Shown in pieces: positions 9,980 through 19,195 of a stretch of DNA of 64,000 nt. The DNA comes from Amycolatopsis sp. WQ 127309. Its GTDB lineage: Bacteria; Actinomycetota; Actinomycetes; Mycobacteriales; Pseudonocardiaceae. The translations under genes and the position numbers were made by a program. The number at the start of each line of letters is the position of its first letter. Within the stretch, counting starts at the first letter, position 1. The stretch covers positions 7,577,001 to 7,641,000 of the forward strand of contig NZ_CP095481.1 of assembly GCF_023023025.1 (NCBI RefSeq), read 5' to 3'. The notes under the pieces are model-generated. The model ran no database searches. It was not told the origin of the DNA and saw nothing but the letters and a program-made list of their open reading frames with translations.

Positions 9980-10867
9980 TCAGAAGGTGCCGTGCTCGTC
10001 GCTTCGCGGGTCGCCGCGGACGACGTGGTCGTCGTAGAGCCCGGCTTGCGCGGTGCGGCGCCAGGGCCGCGCCAGCTGCACCGCCGTGACGATGTCCGGG
10101 TCCGACAGCTCGAGGTCGGCGACGGCCAGACCGGGCTCCGGACTCGAGGACGCCCGCGCGATCCACCGGCCACCGGGCGCGACGACACCGGCGGGCACGG
10201 TGGCGGCGAACTGGGCGGGGACCGAGTAGCCGAGCCAGTAGCTGTACAGCGTCCCGTACGCCTGGGCGACCGTGGCCCGGGCCGCGTCGTCCACCATCAC
10301 CGACACCAGGACGCAGTCGACGTCGAGGCGCTCGTACTCGGCGAACAGCTCGGGGAAGCTGACCTCGATGCACAACGCGCAGCCGAACCGGAAGCCGTCG
10401 ATCTCGAAGACCAGCGGCTCGGTGCCGGGCGAGTAGAGGTACCGCACCTCGGTGTTCGACAGGAACCGCTTGTCGTACCGGCCGACGAGCTTTCCGGTGT
10501 CCGACACGACGTAGAGGCTGTTGTGCGGGCGGTTTCCGCCGCTCAGCGGGTGGATCGAGCCGAACGCGACCCAGATCCCGAGCCGGCCGGCCAGCTCGGC
10601 GATCGCCTCGGCCTCCGCGCGCAGCACCGGCCACGCCGCGCGCGTCCAGTCGGCCGGGCCGACCCGCTCCGGGCCGTGCACCGACATCACCCGCTTGTGC
10701 GGGTAGGTGATCGCCCCTTCCGGGAACTGCACCAGCCGGGCGCCCGCGTCGCGCGCTTCGACCATCAGCTCGCGCAGCCGGGTACCCGACGCGCGGAGCG
10801 CCGTCACGTCGCCGGGATCTTCGACCACTTCGCTCTGGGCCACCGCCAAGCGGAACGTCCGCGCCAC
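9980..10867 (-). CDS. Carbon-nitrogen hydrolase (nitrilase superfamily)
   Basis: Cytoplasmic amidase-type enzyme (295 aa, normal length). The triad is visible: Glu50 in QFPEGAI, Lys133 in YDKRFL, and nucleophile Cys166 in CALCIEVSFPE. These enzymes hydrolyse amides, nitriles or carbamoyl groups through a Cys thioester. The sequence does not single out a known subfamily. It is transcribed divergently from the acyl-AMP ligase operon, with 43 bases to that operon's proposed first codon, so the two promoters face each other in a very short interval and may share control. Whether it functions with that operon is unknown. Confidence 0.9.
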   Translation of the reverse strand: MARTFRLAVAQSEVVEDPGDVTALRASGTRLRELMVEARDAGARLVQFPEGAITYPHKRVMSVHGPERVGPADWTRAAWPVLRAEAEAIAELAGRLGIWVAFGSIHPLSGGNRPHNSLYVVSDTGKLVGRYDKRFLSNTEVRYLYSPGTEPLVFEIDGFRFGCALCIEVSFPELFAEYERLDVDCVLVSVMVDDAARATVAQAYGTLYSYWLGYSVPAQFAATVPAGVVAPGGRWIARASSSPEPGLAVADLELSDPDIVTAVQLARPWRRTAQAGLYDDHVVRGDPRSDEHGTF

Positions 10868-10910: not shown

Positions 10911-10940
10911 ATGCGTCCCGTCCGCCCGAGCCGCCGGTGA
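10911..10940 (+). CDS. Putative 9-codon Arg-rich leader peptide
   Basis: MRPVRPSRR followed by TGA. The ATG is placed at the expected start point of a leaderless transcript. The stop overlaps the GTG of the acyl-AMP ligase as GTGA, so ribosomes finishing the leader could restart on the ligase. Four arginines and two prolines in nine residues hint at attenuation or simply at translational coupling. Too short to prove by sequence alone. Confidence 0.4.
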   Translation: MRPVRPSRR

Positions 10941-12574
10941 ACGTGCCCGAAGAGGTGCTGCGCACCTCGATCGTCGAGCGCCTCTTCGCGCGCGGCGCCG
11001 ACGAGCGTCCGCTGTTCACCCACCAGGACCACAACGCCGGCGCCGAGCACACGCTGACGTGGGCCGGGTTCACGGCGCGGGTGCGCGTGGTGGCCGGCGC
11101 GCTGGGCCGCGTCGCCGAGCCGGGGGAGCGCGTCGCGATCCTCGCGGGCCAGGACCTGAACTACCCGCTCGCGTTCTTCGGCGCGCTCGCCGCCGGCCTG
11201 GTCGCGGTGCCGCTGATGGCGCCGGCGAGCCGCGGCCAGCGCGACCGGCTCACCGGCGTGCTGGCCGACTGCGGCGCCCGCGTCTGGCTGACGTCGTCGG
11301 CTGCGGCCGCCCGGGTGCGCGAAGCCGGCGATTTCGACCACCTCGTGGTGGCCGACGAAGTGTCCGGCCCGGGCGTCGATCCGGTCCCGGTGACGGCGGA
11401 AACCCCGGCGTACCTGCAATACACGTCCGGCTCGACGCGGGAACCGGCCGGCGCGGTGATCCCGCACCGGGCGATCGTCGCCGCCTGCTGGCAGGGCAGC
11501 CGCGCCTACGCCGTCGACGAAGGCACGACCTGCGCCGGCTGGATCCCGTTCTTCCACGACATGGGCCTGATCCAGCTGCTGTGCCTGCCCGTCTTCGCCG
11601 GCGGCCGCTCGGTGTTCATGGCCCCGGCCGAGTTCGTGCACCGGCCGCAGCGGTGGCTGCGGCAGCTGCACGACTACCCGGCGGTGTTCACCGCCGCCCC
11701 GAACTTCGCGTTCGACCTCGCGGCCGACGCGGCGGCCGAGGCCGGCGACGACCTCGACCTGTCCGGCGTGCGGGTCGCCCTCAACGGCAGCGAACCCGTC
11801 CGGCCGCGCACGGTTCGGCGGTTCCAGGAGGTGTTCGGCCCGCGCGGGTTCCGCCCCGGGGCGCACTGCCCGTCCTACGGCCTGGCCGAAGCCACCGTCT
11901 ACGTCACGAGCGCGGGCCCCGAAGGACCGCGCGGCGCGGTGTTCGACCGGGACGCCCTTGCGCAGGGCGCAGCCGTCGAAATGGTCGACGGCCAGGAACT
12001 CGTGTCGGTCGGGCGTCCGGTCGGGCAGCGCGTGCGGATCGTCCGGGATGGACGGACGGCGCCCGACGGCGAGGTCGGCGAGATCTGGATCCATGGCTCG
12101 AACGTGGCCACCGGCTACTGGGGCCGCGGTGACGCCGCCGCGTTCGGCGCCACGCTCGACGGCCTGCGCGGCTGGCTGCGCACCGGCGACCTCGGTGTCG
12201 TGCACCGCGGCGACCTCTACGTCACCGGCCGGATCAAGGACCTCATCGTCGTCGACGGCCGCAACTTCCACCCGCAGGACATCGAAGCGGCGGCGGGGGA
12301 AGCGCACCCGGCCGTCCGCCGGGACCGCGTCGCCGCGTTCGGCGTGGCCGACGACGACGGCGAGGGCGCGGTGGTCGTGGCCGAGTGGGCGCGTGACACC
12401 GACGGCGTGAACGTCCAAGAAGTGACCAGGGCGGTGCTGCGCGCGGTGTCGCGCGAGCACGACCTCACGCTGCGTTCGGTACGTCTGGTCCCTTCCGGCG
12501 GACTTCCGCGCACTTCCAGTGGCAAGGTCGCCCGGTCGGCCGCCAAGGCGCGTTATGGTGACTTCCGTGGGTGA
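10937..12574 (+). CDS. Fatty acyl-AMP ligase (FAAL-type adenylate-forming enzyme)
   Basis: Activates a fatty acid as acyl-AMP for transfer to an acyl carrier protein (545 aa). The adenylation motif YLQYTSGST (Thr163) lies in the family position. GWIPFFHDMGL, NGSEPVR, PSYGLAEATVYV, WLRTGDLG and the C-terminal GRIKDLIVVDGRNFHPQDIE are hallmarks of the FAAL/FadD32 branch rather than of acyl-CoA ligases. PRTSSGKVARSAAK holds the catalytic lysine. GTG at 10937 overlaps the stop of the 9-codon leader. The next gene encodes an ACP, the expected acceptor. No polyketide or peptide synthetase follows; the rest of the operon encodes type VII secretion-like proteins, which is unusual. Confidence 0.9.
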   Translation: MNVPEEVLRTSIVERLFARGADERPLFTHQDHNAGAEHTLTWAGFTARVRVVAGALGRVAEPGERVAILAGQDLNYPLAFFGALAAGLVAVPLMAPASRGQRDRLTGVLADCGARVWLTSSAAAARVREAGDFDHLVVADEVSGPGVDPVPVTAETPAYLQYTSGSTREPAGAVIPHRAIVAACWQGSRAYAVDEGTTCAGWIPFFHDMGLIQLLCLPVFAGGRSVFMAPAEFVHRPQRWLRQLHDYPAVFTAAPNFAFDLAADAAAEAGDDLDLSGVRVALNGSEPVRPRTVRRFQEVFGPRGFRPGAHCPSYGLAEATVYVTSAGPEGPRGAVFDRDALAQGAAVEMVDGQELVSVGRPVGQRVRIVRDGRTAPDGEVGEIWIHGSNVATGYWGRGDAAAFGATLDGLRGWLRTGDLGVVHRGDLYVTGRIKDLIVVDGRNFHPQDIEAAAGEAHPAVRRDRVAAFGVADDDGEGAVVVAEWARDTDGVNVQEVTRAVLRAVSREHDLTLRSVRLVPSGGLPRTSSGKVARSAAKARYGDFRG

Positions 12575-12830
12575 TCACCGCGCCGAGGTCACGAAGGTCG
12601 TCAGCGAGACCTTCATGCTGGACCCCGCCGGCGTCGAGCCCGACGCTCCCCTCGAGGAGCTGGGCATCGACTCCAAGGGCCGGATCAAGCTGCTGGCGGC
12701 GCTGGAGGTCTACTTCCGGGTGACGATCGACCTGGACCAGCTCGACCGGTTCACCGACGTGGGTTCGGTGGCCGAAGTGCTCACGGAAGCGCTCGCGGGC
12801 GCGACCGGCGGATCTGACGAGAGGCTCTGA
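12555..12830 (+). CDS. Acyl carrier protein
   Basis: A stand-alone carrier protein (91 aa from the ATG; GTG at 12567 is an equally possible start). ELGIDSKGRIKLLAALE is the helix-II motif; Ser40 is the phosphopantetheine attachment site. DLDQLDRFTDVGSVAEVL matches the ACP third and fourth helices. It overlaps the 3' end of the acyl-AMP ligase gene, so the two are made together and very probably form an acyl-loading pair. The destination of the acyl chain is not encoded in an obvious way nearby. Confidence 0.87.
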   Translation: MVTSVGDHRAEVTKVVSETFMLDPAGVEPDAPLEELGIDSKGRIKLLAALEVYFRVTIDLDQLDRFTDVGSVAEVLTEALAGATGGSDERL

Positions 12831-12831
12831 A

Positions 12832-13146
12832 ATGAGCGGGGGGTACACCGCGACGACCGACGCGTTGTCGTCGGCGTCGAAGAACATCGGCCAGCTTTCG
12901 GAACAGCTGCTGGACGACAACCCGGACCTGTCGAGCACGCCGGTCGACGCGGCCGGCTTCGGCCAGGCCCACGGCGCGCACGCGGCGAAGTACACCGCCG
13001 GGGTGACGGCGCTGTGGGCCGCGGTCAGCGGGTACAGCAGCACGCTGGGCTCGTTCGGCACGAACCTCGGCACCGCCGGCAGCAGCTACGGCGCGAACGA
13101 GGAAAACCAGTCGGGCGCGATCACCACCGCGGGGGCTGACCTGTAA
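12832..13146 (+). CDS. EspC-like type VII secretion-associated small protein
   Basis: A 104-aa helical-hairpin protein lacking a signal peptide. MSGGYTATTDALSSASKNI, then FGQAHGAHAAKYTAGVTAL and GTNLGTAGSSYGANEEN, follow the pattern of actinobacterial EspC/ESX-1 secretion-associated proteins: two amphipathic helices with a Gly-containing turn and a C-terminal Y/N-E segment. No WXG motif is present. Such proteins are exported by type VII systems, usually as partners of a larger substrate. It lies one base after the ACP gene and its stop overlaps the start of the large protein (TAATG), which supports a complex with it. Confidence 0.75.
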   Translation: MSGGYTATTDALSSASKNIGQLSEQLLDDNPDLSSTPVDAAGFGQAHGAHAAKYTAGVTALWAAVSGYSSTLGSFGTNLGTAGSSYGANEENQSGAITTAGADL

Positions 13147-16100
13147 TGGCCAAGACCTGGACCGAGGTCAAGGCGGTGCTCGACGACCCGAGCGTGCCCG
13201 CGCAGACCAAGAGCGTGCTGATCAGCAGCTGGATGCGGGAGAACCCGCCGCCCCCGCCGTTCCTGGCCGACCAGGAACCGGACGACATCAAGGCGAAGCG
13301 GCAGGAAGCCGAGAAGCTCGCCACCGCCTACAACGCGAACCCGCTCTTCTCCGGCGTCCCGCTCGACGAGGCCTACGACACCGCCAAGAAGGCGGGCGAC
13401 CAGGCCAGCTACAACGAAGACCAGGAGAAGAAGGCCGTCGACGACGGCAAGAAGAAGCTCGACGACACCAAGCCGCCCGCCTCGGACGAGTCCGGCGGCG
13501 GGGCCAGCACCGGCACGAAGACGTCCGACGAGATCTTCGACGCCGCCGCGCCCGCGCTGAAGCTGTTCGAGACGTTCGGCTCGCTGCTGGCGAAGCTCCC
13601 GGCCGACTGCCGCGGCAACACCCGCGCGCTCGACCTGGACAAGGACATCCGGAAGCCGTTCGACGAGCAGCGCGGCATCAGCTTCCAGAACTTCGTCGAG
13701 GACGCCGACCACTTCAAGACCGGCTCGACCACGGTCGACAAGACGGTGGAGAACACCGGCACCGAGCTGTCCGGCCTGTACCAGAGCTGGACCGGCGCCG
13801 GTGCCGACGCCGCGTCGGACACCTACAACGACAAGATCCTGCCCAAGGCGAACAAGCTGTCCCAGACCCTCGGCAACGCGGGCGAGGCGACGCTCAGCAC
13901 CGCGACCACGGTCTTCCAGCTGTGCAAGGGCAAGGCCGACGCGGTCATCGGGATGTACACCGACCTGGTCGGCAAGGCCGACTACACGATGGCGCAGAAG
14001 GTCGTCGCGGTCGCCAGCGGCGAGCACGGCAACGAGCAGGACCTGGCCCAGATCGCGGGCTGGATGGACGCCAACTTCGGCACCAACCTGGTCAAGACGC
14101 TCAACGACCAGGGCTGCTGCGACGGCGACGAGATCAAGAAGCACGGCCAGGACCTGGCCAAGCAGTGGATCCAGAACCAGTTCAACCCCGACATGTGGGA
14201 CCGGCTCTACCAGGGCTTCGCCAAGACCTGCAAGGACACCAAGGACCTCGTCGACCAGGCCTACGACGCGCTCGACAAGGTCATGGGCAAGGTCAAGAAC
14301 GAGTTCGAGGGCGTCACGATGCCCGGCGGTTCGGGCTCGGGTTCCGGGTCCGGCACCGGTGGGTCCGGTGGCGGCTCCGGTTCCGGTTCGGGCAACGGTG
14401 GTTACGGCGGCGGTTCCGGCTCGGGCAGTGGCTCGGGTTCGGGCGGTGGCGGCTACGGCGGTGGCTCGGGCGGCGGCGACGGTTCGGGTGCCGGTGGTTC
14501 CGGTTCCGGCTCGGGTTCCGGCGGGTCCGGCTCCGGCAGCGGTTCGGGCGGTGGGTCGGGTTCCGGCGGCTCGGGCTCGGGTGGCGGCGGCAACGTGCCG
14601 CCGATCCCGGACTTCGACACGCCGTCCGGTGCCTCCGGCGGCGGCTCCGGGTCCGGTTCGGGCCCGGGTTCCGGCTCCGGTGGTGGCGGTTCGGTGCCGC
14701 CGATCCCGGACATCTCCGGGGGTTCCGGTTCGGGCTCGGGCGGCGGTTCCGGCTCGGGTTCGGGCGCCGGTGGTGGTGGCCCGATGCCGTCCATTCCGGA
14801 CATGTCCGGTGGCGGGGGCTCGGGCGGTGGCGACGACACGACGCCGTCTTCGACGCCGCCACCGTCGTCTTCGGACGGTCAGGAGGCCGCGGCCGCGGCG
14901 GCGGAGGCCGCCAAGAAGAAGGCCGCCGACGCCCTGAGCCAGTTCTCCGGCGAGGGCATCAAGACCGACTCCGGCGACGGCGCGGGCGGCCTCGGCGGTG
15001 GCGGTGGCAGTGACTCCGGCGGTGGTGCCGGCGGCGGCAGCGACACGTCGCCGTCCGGGGCCGGTTCGGGCTCGGGAGCCGGCGGTGGTCAGGACGCGGC
15101 CGCCGCGGCGGCGGAAGCGGCGAAGAAGAAGGCCGCCGACGCGTTGAGCGAGTTCTCCGGCGAGGGCATCAAGACCGACTCCGGTGGCGGTTCGGGCCTC
15201 GGCGGCAGCGGCGGTGGCGACGACGCGGGCTCCGGCTCGGGGTCGGGCTCGGATTCCGGGTCGGACCCGGCCGCGGACGGCAAGGAAGCGGCCGAAAAGG
15301 CCGCGGAGGACGCGAAAAAGCAGGCGTCCGACGCGCTGGACAAGCTCGATGGCGACGGCATCAAGACCGACCAGGACGGCGACGGCCTGCTCGACGACGA
15401 CAAGTCCGACAAGGACGGCGACGGCAAGCCCGACGGCGACGAGAAGCTCGACCACCTGAAGGTCAAGCAGGGCGACAAGACCTTCGAGATGACCGAGCCG
15501 GACTCCGACGGCAAGATGGACATCAAGGTCGGCGAGGGCGACGGCCCGGCGAAGGATTTCAAGCTCGACTGGCCCGACGATGACGCCGCCAAGACCGACC
15601 TCGGCGTCGGCTCGGACGACCCGGGGAAGCCGGACGCCGACGGCGTCTACCACCCCGGCGCGGACGGCAAGATCCACATCCAGGACGGCGACGTCAAGAT
15701 CACCGCCGAGCGGCCCGACGGCCCGAACGGCCCGACGGTCGTGACCGTCGACGACGGCACCGGCAAGCCGACGACCTACACCCTCGGCGAGGACGACACG
15801 TCGCCCGGCGGCCTGGACGACGACGCCAGGAAGCACCTCGACGACGCGCTCAGCGGCGAGACCAGGGGCGACACGGCGTCGCACGCGCTCGGCGACACCC
15901 CCGACGCGAAGCCCGACGACCTGCCGAAGCACAGCGGCACCCTCGACGGGGCCGGCGCGCCGGGCGGCGGCGGGGGTGGCGCGCACGCGCTGTCCACGGC
16001 CGGTCTCGACACGGGCGGCGGTGCGGTGACGGGCTCGCTCGGCGAGTCGCCGTCGCTGTCCGAGGGCGTCCACAGCGGGGTGGGTGCGAGCCAGCAGCAG

Positions 16101-16343
16101 ACGGCGGCGCCCGCGTTCGCCTCGGCGGCCATGTCCGGTGCGAACGGCCAGCCCGGTCAGTCGATGGGCGGCGGCATGCCGATGGGCGGCATGGGCGGCG
16201 GCGGCCAGGGCGGCGGCGACCAGGAGCGCTCGAACCGCGCGTACCGGATCGAGGGCGCCGTCTTCGAGCCGATGGCCGAACCCACCGGCCGCATCGTCGG
16301 GTCGCTGGACGACGAGGAGCCACCGGCCCCCCGCCGGTGGTGA
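13146..16343 (+). CDS. Large WXG-type, Gly/Ser-rich probable type VII substrate
   Basis: A 1065-aa protein without signal peptide or membrane helix. Residues 1-200 are helical and charged. Residues about 200-390 form a helical WXG100-like region with SWTG (Trp215-Gly217) at the turn, and contain CC and other cysteines. Residues 394-571 are almost pure Gly/Ser with VPPIPD and MPSIPD spacers. Three copies of a 32-residue helical unit (EAAKKKAADALSxFSGEGIKTDS core) start at 579, 649 and 713. Residues 742-766 have DxDGDG repeats like calcium-binding thrombospondin type 3 motifs. The acidic C-terminal half ends PPAPRRW. It is probably a surface or secreted protein; the function is unknown. Confidence 0.8.
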   Translation: MAKTWTEVKAVLDDPSVPAQTKSVLISSWMRENPPPPPFLADQEPDDIKAKRQEAEKLATAYNANPLFSGVPLDEAYDTAKKAGDQASYNEDQEKKAVDDGKKKLDDTKPPASDESGGGASTGTKTSDEIFDAAAPALKLFETFGSLLAKLPADCRGNTRALDLDKDIRKPFDEQRGISFQNFVEDADHFKTGSTTVDKTVENTGTELSGLYQSWTGAGADAASDTYNDKILPKANKLSQTLGNAGEATLSTATTVFQLCKGKADAVIGMYTDLVGKADYTMAQKVVAVASGEHGNEQDLAQIAGWMDANFGTNLVKTLNDQGCCDGDEIKKHGQDLAKQWIQNQFNPDMWDRLYQGFAKTCKDTKDLVDQAYDALDKVMGKVKNEFEGVTMPGGSGSGSGSGTGGSGGGSGSGSGNGGYGGGSGSGSGSGSGGGGYGGGSGGGDGSGAGGSGSGSGSGGSGSGSGSGGGSGSGGSGSGGGGNVPPIPDFDTPSGASGGGSGSGSGPGSGSGGGGSVPPIPDISGGSGSGSGGGSGSGSGAGGGGPMPSIPDMSGGGGSGGGDDTTPSSTPPPSSSDGQEAAAAAAEAAKKKAADALSQFSGEGIKTDSGDGAGGLGGGGGSDSGGGAGGGSDTSPSGAGSGSGAGGGQDAAAAAAEAAKKKAADALSEFSGEGIKTDSGGGSGLGGSGGGDDAGSGSGSGSDSGSDPAADGKEAAEKAAEDAKKQASDALDKLDGDGIKTDQDGDGLLDDDKSDKDGDGKPDGDEKLDHLKVKQGDKTFEMTEPDSDGKMDIKVGEGDGPAKDFKLDWPDDDAAKTDLGVGSDDPGKPDADGVYHPGADGKIHIQDGDVKITAERPDGPNGPTVVTVDDGTGKPTTYTLGEDDTSPGGLDDDARKHLDDALSGETRGDTASHALGDTPDAKPDDLPKHSGTLDGAGAPGGGGGGAHALSTAGLDTGGGAVTGSLGESPSLSEGVHSGVGASQQQTAAPAFASAAMSGANGQPGQSMGGGMPMGGMGGGGQGGGDQERSNRAYRIEGAVFEPMAEPTGRIVGSLDDEEPPAPRRW
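14880..15377 (+). repeat. Three in-frame copies of a 96-bp coding repeat
   Basis: Within the large protein gene, 32-codon units start at 14880, 15090 and 15282. Copies 1 and 2 are nearly identical at the protein level (both contain EAAKKKAADALS and FSGEGIKTDSG); copy 3 is diverged and leads straight into the DxDGDG segment. They are separated by Gly/Ser spacers of unequal length. Confidence 0.8.
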
Positions 16344-16363
16344 GCGCGGGCTGAGGAGGACGC

Positions 16364-16759
16364 ATGAGCGACGAGATGGCGGGCATGAAGGCCGGCTTGG
16401 ACGGCCTCGTCCGCGAACAGGCCGAGCGCCGCTCCCTGCGCGAGCAGCAGGGTGAGGAGATCAAGGCCAAGTCCCAGGAGTACATGACCAAGCAGGTGCA
16501 GGCGGCCGAGCGGTACGTCCAGCACGTGCGGGAGATGGCCAACCGCAAGACCAAGTCCGGCTGGGGCGTCCGCGACGACAGCGGCGGCCCGCAGAGCTTC
16601 GAGCCGGAGGGTTTCGCGGGGGAGCAGGGCGCGGGCGCGGCGTCGCCGTTCGCCCCCACCCCGGCCCCGCCATCGGCCCCGGCGGAGCCCCGCCGCGGCC
16701 GCCGCCACCGAGCAGCCGACCCGGACGACGACGACGGCTTCGGCAACAACCCCTGGTAA
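16364..16759 (+). CDS. Small helical protein of the type VII-like operon
   Basis: A 131-aa protein I do not recognise. Residues 1-70 are highly charged and helical (GLVREQAERRSLREQQGEEI and following), probably a coiled coil with one Trp near residue 67. The remainder is a Pro/Ala-rich tail ending in a basic patch RRGRRHR and an acidic DPDDDDG. GAGGA precedes the ATG at optimal distance. It is the last gene of the operon, 20 bases after the large protein, and could be its chaperone or structural partner. No known domain is evident. Confidence 0.75.
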   Translation: MSDEMAGMKAGLDGLVREQAERRSLREQQGEEIKAKSQEYMTKQVQAAERYVQHVREMANRKTKSGWGVRDDSGGPQSFEPEGFAGEQGAGAASPFAPTPAPPSAPAEPRRGRRHRAADPDDDDGFGNNPW

Positions 16760-16843: not shown

Positions 16844-16878
16844 CGCTCGTGAACGGCCTGGCGCCGTGATGCCCCGCC

Positions 16879-17213
16879 GATCACCCGTGATGCCCCTGCG
16901 ATCACCCGTGATGCCCCTCCGGACACGCGAGTTCGCCCGCTGATCACGTGAGTTCCGGCCGGGATCACGTGAGTTCCGGGTCAGGTCACGCGAGTTCCGG
17001 CCCGGATCACGCGAGTTCCGGGTCAGGTCACGCGAGTTCCGGCCCGGATCATGTGTGACCCGAGCCGGAACTCACGTGATCAAGCCCGGAACTCACGTGA
17101 CCCGAGCCGGAACTCACGTGATCAGGCCCGGAACTCGCGTGACTCAGCCCGGAAGTCACGTGATCAGGCCCGGAACTCGCGTGACTCAGCCCGGAACTCG
17201 CGTGATCCGGGCC
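16879..17213. repeat. Inverted array of 21-bp intergenic repeats
   Basis: Units with the core GATCACGTGAGTTCCGG start at 16879, 16900, 16921, 16942, 16963, 16984, 17005, 17026 and 17047, exactly 21 bp apart; the first two or three are diverged (GATCACCCGTGATGCCC type). The array then inverts: GGAACTCACGTGATC units start at 17067, 17088, 17109, 17130, 17151, 17172 and 17193, again exactly 21 bp apart. The dyad lies near 17055-17066. It fills the gap between convergent genes. ORFs read through it only because 21 is divisible by 3. Confidence 0.9.
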
Positions 17214-17383
17214 GGATCACGCAGGATCGGGTCAGGCACGCGGCCACCGCCGACTTGCGGTTTCCTGCTGACGGCCGGGAAGGGCCACAATGGCGCCCGG
17301 TGTGGCCGATATGGCGACCCGGTGTGGCCAAGACGCTGGCCGGACTGGCCGACACGGGACCGGAGTGGTTGCCGCGGGCCGGG

Positions 17384-19195
17384 CTAGGTGTCCAGGGCTC
17401 GGTCCAGGTTGAGGGCTGCGCTGATCAGCGCCAGGTGGGTGAACGCCTGCGGGAAGTTGCCCAGCTGCTCCCCGGTCAACCCGATCTGCTCGGCGTAGAG
17501 CCCGACGTGGTTGGCGTAGGTGAACATCTTCTCCAGCGCCAGCCGCGCGTCGTCGGTGCGGCCGGCGCGGGTCAGGGCCTCCACCCACCAGAACGAGCAC
17601 AGCGAGAACGTGCCCTCCGAGCCGTCGAGGCCGTCGGGGGCTTCCTCCGGGTTGTAGCGGAACACCAGGCTGTCCAGCACCAGCTCCTCGCCGATGCGTT
17701 CCACAGTGGACAGGAACCGCGGGTCGGTGGGGGAGCAGAACTTCACCATCGGCATCAGCAGCAGTGACGCGTCGAGCGCGGTGCCGGGTTCGGGCTCGCA
17801 GTGCTGGACGAACGCGCCGATCTCCGCGTTCCAGCCCTGCTCCTGGATCCGGCCGTAGATCTCGTCGCGCACCGACGTCCAGCGCGTGAGGTCGGCGGGC
17901 AGGCCGCGGCGGCGCGCCACCCGGACCATCCGCTCCACCGCGACCCAGCTCATCAGCCGGGAGAACGTGTGGTTCCGTTGCCCCGAACGGGTTTCCCAGA
18001 TGCCGTGATCAGGCCGGTCCCAGTTCTCCAGCAGCCAGTCCAGCATCGTGCACAGGCTCGCCCAGCTGGCGTGCGAGATGCCCTTGCCGTACTTGTCGAA
18101 CAGGTAGATCGAGTCGATGACCTCGCCGTAGACGTCCAGCTGCAGCTGCTCGGCCGCGCCGTTGCCGACGCGCACCGGGCGGGAGCCGCGGTACCCCTCG
18201 AGGTGCGCCAGCTCGTGCTCGGTGAGGTCGGCGTCGCCGTCGATGGAGTACATCACGCGCAGCGGGCCGAGGTCGCCGTCGCGGTCGTCGGAGACGCGGT
18301 CGGTCAGCCAGCCGACGAACGCCTCGGCCTCGTCGGTGAAACCCAGGCGCAGCAACGCGTACAGCGAGAACCCGGCGTCACGCAGCCAGACGTGCCGGTA
18401 GTCCCAGTTGCGTTCCCCGCCGATCCGCTCCGGCAGGCCGAGGGTCGGCGCGGCGACGATCGCGCCGCTCGGCTCGTGCGTGAGCAGCTTCAACGTCAAC
18501 GCCGAGCGGTGCACCATCTCCCGCCACCGGCCGGTGTAGGACGAGCGGGACAGCCAGTCGCGCCAGAACCCGACGGTCGCGTCGAACAGGTCCTGGGCCT
18601 CGGCCGCGTCGGCCGCCGGGTGGTCGGCCGTGTCGTCGGCGACCTCCAGCACGAACAGCTCCGCGTCGCCGGCGGGGACGTCGAACTCGGCCGTGGCCGC
18701 GCCGTCGCCGGTGTCCAGGGTGACCGACGAGTCGAGGCAGACGCGCATCTCCCTGCCCTGGAAGGAGATGCGACTGTCCTTCTCGGACACCTCCGGGACG
18801 TCGCGGCCGTAGTCGAAGCACGGCCGGACCCGGGTGCGCATCCGGACGTGCCCGCGGATGTTGACCACCCGCCGCACCAGCCGTTGCCGGTGCTCGTCGT
18901 CGTGCGGGCGCAGGATCGGCATGAAGTCCTGCAGCTCGACGATGCCGTCCTCGGTGAGGAACCGGGTGATGAGGATGTTCGTGTCCGGGAAGTAGAACTG
19001 GTGGCGCGCGGTGACCTCGCACACCGGCGCCAGCTCCCAGTCGCCGCCGCGCCCGTCGTCGACGAGCGCCCCGAAGACGCTCGGCGAGTCGAACCGCGGC
19101 GCGCAGAACCAGCTCACCCGGCCGTCGGTGCCGACGAGCGCCGCGGTGCGCAGGTCGCCGACCAGGCCGTGCTCGGCGATCGGCAGGTAGGTCAC
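17384..19195 (-). CDS. GH15 family glycoside hydrolase (trehalase/glucoamylase-like)
   Basis: A 603-aa cytoplasmic enzyme. The N-terminal beta-sandwich starts YLPIAEHGLVGDLRTAALVGTDGRVSWFCAPRFDSPSVF, represented by LVGTDGRVSWFC and PRFDSPSVF; the (alpha/alpha)6 catalytic barrel contains LPERIGGERNWDYRHVWLRDA split as LPERIGGERNWDYR and HVWLRDA (about residues 255-274), and a C-terminal helical region with GLYAEQIG near the second catalytic Glu. In actinobacteria several such proteins are trehalases. The GTG start overlaps the zwf stop (GTGA), so glucose-releasing and glucose-6-phosphate-oxidising steps are coupled. No signal peptide is present, which favours intracellular trehalose or maltooligosaccharide as the substrate. 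Confidence 0.9.
   Translation of the reverse strand: MTYLPIAEHGLVGDLRTAALVGTDGRVSWFCAPRFDSPSVFGALVDDGRGGDWELAPVCEVTARHQFYFPDTNILITRFLTEDGIVELQDFMPILRPHDDEHRQRLVRRVVNIRGHVRMRTRVRPCFDYGRDVPEVSEKDSRISFQGREMRVCLDSSVTLDTGDGAATAEFDVPAGDAELFVLEVADDTADHPAADAAEAQDLFDATVGFWRDWLSRSSYTGRWREMVHRSALTLKLLTHEPSGAIVAAPTLGLPERIGGERNWDYRHVWLRDAGFSLYALLRLGFTDEAEAFVGWLTDRVSDDRDGDLGPLRVMYSIDGDADLTEHELAHLEGYRGSRPVRVGNGAAEQLQLDVYGEVIDSIYLFDKYGKGISHASWASLCTMLDWLLENWDRPDHGIWETRSGQRNHTFSRLMSWVAVERMVRVARRRGLPADLTRWTSVRDEIYGRIQEQGWNAEIGAFVQHCEPEPGTALDASLLLMPMVKFCSPTDPRFLSTVERIGEELVLDSLVFRYNPEEAPDGLDGSEGTFSLCSFWWVEALTRAGRTDDARLALEKMFTYANHVGLYAEQIGLTGEQLGNFPQAFTHLALISAALNLDRALDT

Follow-up and report, generated by a model that had tools for sequence, protein, structure and literature searches.

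A stretch of 64,000 nucleotides from Amycolatopsis sp. WQ 127309 (contig NZ_CP095481.1, positions 7,577,001 to 7,641,000; hereafter the window) contains five closely packed genes that encode, in order, a fatty acyl-AMP ligase (FAAL), a stand-alone acyl carrier protein (ACP), a small EspC-like helical protein, a large protein of the kind associated with type VII secretion systems (T7SS), which we call BIG, and a small coiled-coil protein, which we call SMALL. These genes form a conserved unit that keeps its order at many genomic sites, purifying selection acts on its FAAL and ACP, and a second copy in the same genome lies beside an ESX-4-like locus. We tentatively propose, with somewhat less than even confidence, that the unit is an export cassette with its own supply of acyl-ACP, from which an acyl group would be passed to a cassette protein or to a co-exported envelope molecule.

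Five genes are conserved as a unit at many genomic sites

The window comes from a genome represented by a single contig of 11.13 Mb. On its forward strand the FAAL gene (10937..12574; 545 residues, GTG start, with an alternative GTG start at 10943) overlaps the ACP gene (12555..12830; 91 residues) by 20 bases, a gap of 1 base precedes the EspC-like gene (12832..13146; 104 residues), the EspC-like gene and BIG (13146..16343; 1065 residues) overlap at TAATG, and SMALL (16364..16759; 131 residues) follows after a further 20 bases. This order and spacing agree throughout with an earlier account of the window made from its letters alone (the sequence-only reading). That account began the operon and its ligase at 10911, a start we rejected: the ATG there is out of frame and soon runs into a stop, and the FAAL frame begins at one of the two GTG codons.

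A search with the ACP in 150 genomes of the family Pseudonocardiaceae, which like our search for FAALs in the window's own genome was not biased toward BIG-bearing loci, yielded 15 hits in 8 genomes at a threshold of E 1e-10. All 15 of these close relatives, the window's ACP included, sit in the order FAAL-ACP-EspC-BIG-SMALL, and SMALL lies directly 3' of BIG in each of the 14 FAAL loci of the family-genome set. The association of FAAL and ACP with type VII-like secreted-protein genes, on which the sequence-only reading was built, is borne out by these loci; a routine separation of the two groups of genes, which would have spoken against it, is not what we found in this clade.

The window's genome carries a second, diverged copy in which all five genes are kept at 30-55% identity. 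This copy is located between glmM and glmS, and a few kb upstream of it are genes for EccE, EccB, mycosin, EccD, EccC and a WXG100 pair. Each of these scores above its curated cut-off, and together they make up a complete ESX-4-like type VII locus. Co-occurrence with ESX core genes, also raised earlier, is thus seen at the second copy and not in the window itself, where the gene list has no EccB, EccC, EccD, mycosin or WXG100 pair beside the cassette.

We also examined 77 named loci found via BIG, drawn from its best 80 matches, a set in which a FAAL cassette without BIG could not show up and which overlaps the 150 family genomes (one 9512-base contig, for example, is in both). FAAL-ACP-EspC-BIG was present in 62 of the 77, all in records titled Amycolatopsis, a genus of soil bacteria, and SMALL was present in 60 of these 62, the other two stopping at a contig end. 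An ACP with ketosynthase (KS) genes occurred in five loci (three from Prauserella, one from Amycolatopsis arida and one from a metagenome-assembled genome), and neither module in ten, two of which are cut by contig ends. With two incomplete loci assigned by their remaining neighbours, the 62 FAAL loci divide into 31 at the glmM-glmS (glm) site, which we regard as ancestral, and 31 elsewhere. The neighbours of moved cassettes, that of the window included, differ from site to site: upstream there are 17 kinds among 31 loci, and downstream 14 among 32. Because the five genes remain together at so many moved sites, we consider them a functional unit, and this is our strongest evidence. In addition, pairwise distances of FAAL, ACP, EspC and BIG correlate across 15 loci (r 0.93-0.99); the corresponding values for SMALL, r 0.75-0.78, are distorted by the wrong SMALL having been picked in L034 and L035.

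Median dN/dS values indicate purifying selection on FAAL and ACP: 0.21 and 0.26, respectively, at the moved site and 0.30 and 0.49 at the glm site. These observations bear on whether the linkage has any function at all, since FAAL and ACP might owe their place in the conserved ribosomal/glmM-glmS neighbourhood to chance and have been carried along. The ancestral site is strongly conserved, so that the break-up of neighbours would be slowed there, and the module is absent from most genomes, as such an accident would predict. The five genes nevertheless stay together after moves to many other sites, selection acts on FAAL and ACP, and a different ACP module (described below) recurs at the same secreted-protein genes and persists even when inverted. 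Given the 15 of 15 ACP relatives in order, the variety of moved sites and the distance correlations, we judge linkage by chance to be very unlikely.

Two further genes of the glm site were considered as members of the unit and rejected. An alpha/beta hydrolase gene before glmS is present there with or without an ACP and is not carried with moved cassettes, and a P450-like gene beside FAAL is absent from moved sites. The latter, a short gene that points away from FAAL in most of the FAAL loci at the glm site (L022-L035; for example L023:11243-12175), keeps a Cys motif of the FGLGRHxCPG type and matches PF00067 at 0.0047, below cut-off.

The ligase is a FAAL in an atypical context

The ligase matches PF00501 at 7e-59, and FAAL models head its NCBIfam list. 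The eight top models, at 459 to 342 bits, are FAALs or a FAAL-bearing synthetase, followed by PRK07768 (a model named CoA ligase) at 316 bits, MbtM at 224 and a remainder at or below 150 bits, every one of these matches lying below its curated cut-off. The nearest solved structures are FadD32-type enzymes, and the window FAAL retains, like FadD32, a long stretch after YGLAE. Motifs A4, A5, A8 and A10 are present in all 15 cassette FAALs and the exact form of A3 in 10. In a FAAL tree the cassette enzymes form one clade (support 0.992) as against five other FAAL-like enzymes of the same genome (35-50% identity), all of which are located away from the cassette; one of the five precedes a 1445-residue gene that by eye resembles a polyketide synthase (PKS) or nonribosomal peptide synthetase (NRPS). 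The ACP matches PF00550 at 4e-11, above cut-off, and the carrier Ser is kept in all 37 of the cassette ACPs listed, FAAL and KS types pooled. From these family assignments, the cassette FAAL very probably loads the cassette ACP.

By its sequence, then, the ligase is a FAAL, and its context is atypical because neither the window genes nor the cassettes include a synthetase. Our own script (used in place of a standard tool, as at all fetched loci) called 57 genes in the window; no modular synthetase is visible among them, and the longest gene besides BIG encodes 701 residues; on this point we concur with the sequence-only reading. In PMC8460268, typical bacterial FAALs are said always to occur with PKS or PKS/NRPS genes, and to that statement the cassette FAAL is an exception. 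A stand-alone FAAL followed by a stand-alone ACP is also the arrangement of DptE-DptF of the daptomycin system, where DptE loads DptF (PMC9113097). Such pairs feed an NRPS condensation domain, whereas the next genes of the cassette are of T7SS type, and no condensation-domain partner is found in the window gene list or in the cassettes.

EspC-like and BIG carry features of type VII export

Neither the EspC-like protein nor SMALL of the window itself matches any Pfam or NCBIfam family. The EspC-like protein is a predicted EspC/PE-like small helical protein with a C-terminal YxxxE. Of 83 EspC-like proteins, 3 were set aside because of their length; in 80 of the remaining 80, Tyr and the acidic residue at +4 share one alignment column, as compared with 13% of shuffled tails. 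YxxxD/E is presented as a type VII secretion signal in PMC3935865. An EspC profile matched EsxB (5e-4) and PE25 (0.009), with an engineered cytochrome trimer and a designed coiled coil ranking above both, and one EspC-like homologue matched PF10824 at 0.0014, below cut-off.

BIG consists of a WXG domain (~171-256), a variable Gly/Ser linker, a conserved domain (~755-885 in a domain alignment) and a conserved C-terminal tail. It matches the WXG100 model TIGR03930 at E 4.1e-7, below cut-off; its W215-x-G217 is invariant in 55 of 55 aligned relatives, picked from 91; and its profile matches the structures of EsxA and EsxB (1e-4 to 4e-4). On the basis of the YxxxD/E signal, the WXG domain and the ESX-4 locus, EspC-like and BIG are probably exported through an ESX-4-type system. 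As in PE-PPE and EsxA-EsxB pairs, adjacent genes encode a small YxxxD/E partner and a larger WXG-domain partner; the cassette differs from those pairs in the large linker and C-terminal domains of BIG and in the acyl-ACP module alongside.

The linker of the window's BIG is rich in Ser (14.0%) and includes a run of 33 residues made up of Gly and Ser only, and the sequence-only reading had suggested a very Ser-rich surface protein as the target of lipidation. In 15 other large proteins (14 encoded beside a FAAL and one from a FAAL-less locus), linker Ser amounts to 3.4-11.9%, the runs are shorter in the FAAL-bearing relatives, and the DxDGDG repeats of the window protein are absent from all 15. 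Neither feature being shared by relatives, we rejected both as the reason for the FAAL, and because FAAL-bearing relatives do not share the Ser-rich linker it is most improbable as the acylation site.

The secreted-protein triplet also occurs without lipid genes

BIG occurs in 88 of the 150 family genomes and in 35 of 46 genera. We fetched loci for 85 of these 88 genomes (all except G061, G103 and G130); four of 80 fetched loci (L125, L141, L144 and L145) have a weak BIG match only. FAAL and ACP are present in 8 of the 85 genomes, an ACP with two ketosynthase-like genes in 21, and an ACP only in 2. Outside the family but within the order, relatives of BIG turned up in another 15 of 249 genomes; 8 of their loci were fetched, 4 of them at the glm site, and none of the 8 has a FAAL, ACP or KS gene in the stretch examined. 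The EspC-BIG-SMALL triplet is older than the lipid genes, and it is an ESX-4-linked unit that also exists alone.

At the ESX-4 locus the genes stand in the order WXG100 pair, rplM, rpsI, glmM, EspC-like, BIG-like, alpha/beta hydrolase and glmS. Certain other families of the order Mycobacteriales have this arrangement with no ACP, whereas in part of the window's family FAAL-ACP or ACP-KS modules have been added. We take its EspC-like and large WXG gene pair to correspond to the mycobacterial Rv3440c/Rv3439c region. L281, L286, L280 and L285 are examples from other families of the order in which EspC-like and BIG-like genes stand at the glmM-glmS site without an ACP. Within the family, L023, L032-L035, L191, L195 and others have, immediately upstream of their glm-site FAAL cassette, a further EspC-BIG(-SMALL) triplet that includes neither FAAL nor ACP.

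A second putative acyl-ACP module, with ketosynthase genes, occurs at the same triplet

In the 21 genomes with ketosynthase-like genes, the ACP is followed by KSa (~395 residues) and KSb (~330 residues), mostly 3' of SMALL; in 4 of the 21 the module is inverted and placed before EspC. These ACP-KS-KS loci of other Pseudonocardiaceae (L070-L096; for example L080:12376-14825) lie in the ESX-4/glmM-glmS neighbourhood, and no ketoreductase or dehydratase is found in them. KSa keeps the Cys, both His and the Lys motifs in 21 of 21 aligned sequences (judged by eye), and KSb is without the active Cys (by eye and with no joint alignment). In a tree holding 20 of the 21 cassette sequences, KSa forms a clade (support 0.836) that adjoins ketosynthases of other clusters, most of which hold short-chain reductase and dehydratase genes (10 regions, by eye) and which we take to be highly reducing type II PKS-like. 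The KS version resembles such systems in having a KS, a KS-like partner and an ACP, and they are its nearest relatives by tree and context; unlike them, it has no ketoreductase or dehydratases in the export locus and has T7SS-type genes beside the KS pair. Since FAAL+ACP and ACP-KS-KS both occur at EspC-BIG-SMALL, one predicted export triplet is joined to two different putative acyl-ACP makers.

An acyl-ACP made beside export genes could instead feed a small lipid, lipopeptide or glycolipid that needs T7SS-type proteins for its export or display, the proteins themselves being non-acylated. Known FAAL-ACP pairs such as DptE-DptF start lipopeptides (PMC9113097), the KS pair is related to ketosynthases from clusters with short-chain reductase and dehydratase genes, and a P450-like gene stands beside FAAL in most glm-site loci. 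The moved cassette, however, consists of the five genes only, without an enzyme to finish a small molecule, and moved cassettes have differing neighbours; we consider this explanation unlikely.

Also conceivable is that acyl-ACP regulates, senses or chaperones export. Secretion would then be controlled by whether the ACP is acylated or by its binding to EspC-like, BIG or SMALL, with no transfer of the acyl group. This would fit the lack of an acyltransferase and the fact that the FAAL and KS versions have the ACP in common, one locus (L089) retaining the ACP alone. Against it, no sequence evidence of an ACP-binding site turned up, no structure-model search for one having been made, and we regard such a role as quite improbable.

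A tentative model for acyl-ACP supply to type VII export

Under the export-cassette proposal, FAAL would adenylate a fatty acid and load it onto the cassette ACP. EspC-like and BIG would form a WXG/PE-type pair, bearing the YxxxE signal, and would leave the cell through the ESX-4-type machine whose genes lie at the cassette's ancestral site. An acyltransferase would then transfer the acyl group either to one of the cassette proteins or to a molecule of the envelope that is exported together with it. The ketosynthase and its ketosynthase-like partner would provide acyl-ACP in place of FAAL in other genera. That the acyl group ends on or with the exported complex is possible, and we put it a little short of an even chance. 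The more specific claim, that the Pseudonocardiaceae ESX-4-type export complex is fatty-acylated, or exits with an acyl chain attached to it tightly or by a covalent bond, the chain coming from a dedicated acyl-ACP module that evolved in a FAAL and a ketosynthase-pair form, we hold to be doubtful. A dedicated carrier that serves an exported product has analogues in DltA-DltC (D-alanine ligase and carrier) and NodE-NodF (ketosynthase and ACP); the cassette differs from both in having no DltB- or NodA-like acyltransferase.

Several observations weigh against the proposal. No acyltransferase is present in any FAAL cassette seen, in line with the sequence-only reading. We considered whether the cassette might conceal one; the genes leave no space between them for it, and EspC-like and SMALL match no family. 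Nor was a candidate acyl acceptor residue identified. At their fetched loci 54 of the 85 family genomes are without an ACP module, which argues against the lipid genes being strictly required, and FAAL-less EspC-BIG-SMALL triplets occur in genomes that also carry a FAAL cassette. One of the two ACP-only genomes has a decayed ACP-KS stretch (L082:11800-12950, after SMALL) and the other an intact lone ACP (L089); because loci exist in which the module is absent, decayed or reduced to its ACP, it appears to be dispensable. As to the proteins themselves, the exact YTSGST motif is missing in 5 of the 15 cassette FAALs, the stretch at the FAAL-specific insertion site is shortened in those of the second-copy type (L022, L023, L027, L032-L035), and curated models support the EspC assignment weakly. 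Overall, the earlier interpretation of the window is partly supported.

Surroundings of the cassette in the window

The nearest gene before FAAL encodes a carbon-nitrogen hydrolase (9980-10867) and the nearest after SMALL a GH15 enzyme (17384-19195), both on the strand opposite to the operon. In L160 (Amycolatopsis acididurans) the gene upstream of a moved cassette resembles, by eye, this downstream GH15 gene. Tandem repeats of 21 and 42 bases lie downstream of the operon at 16864-17216, and a 238-residue open reading frame at 17051-17767 is probably not a gene, since its frame passes through them. Scans of the window for promoters, Rfam families and tRNAs gave 0 sites, 0 matches and 0 genes, respectively.

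Significance for type VII secretion

To our knowledge, the cargo and purpose of ESX-4-type systems are poorly known outside mycobacteria. In titles and abstract openings of the literature on FAAL, ACP, acylation, WXG100, ESX-4, Rv3439c and Amycolatopsis we found no description of an ACP module in a type VII operon, and none is described in the part of PMC11004387 we consulted. The presence of two acyl-ACP modules on the same cargo genes suggests that lipid chemistry and type VII export are connected, and an ESX-4-linked triplet that occurs with an acyl-ACP module in two chemical versions offers a genetically small test of that coupling. If the complex is indeed acylated, a lipid modification would be added to type VII secretion, and the family would provide a lipid-modified type VII substrate.

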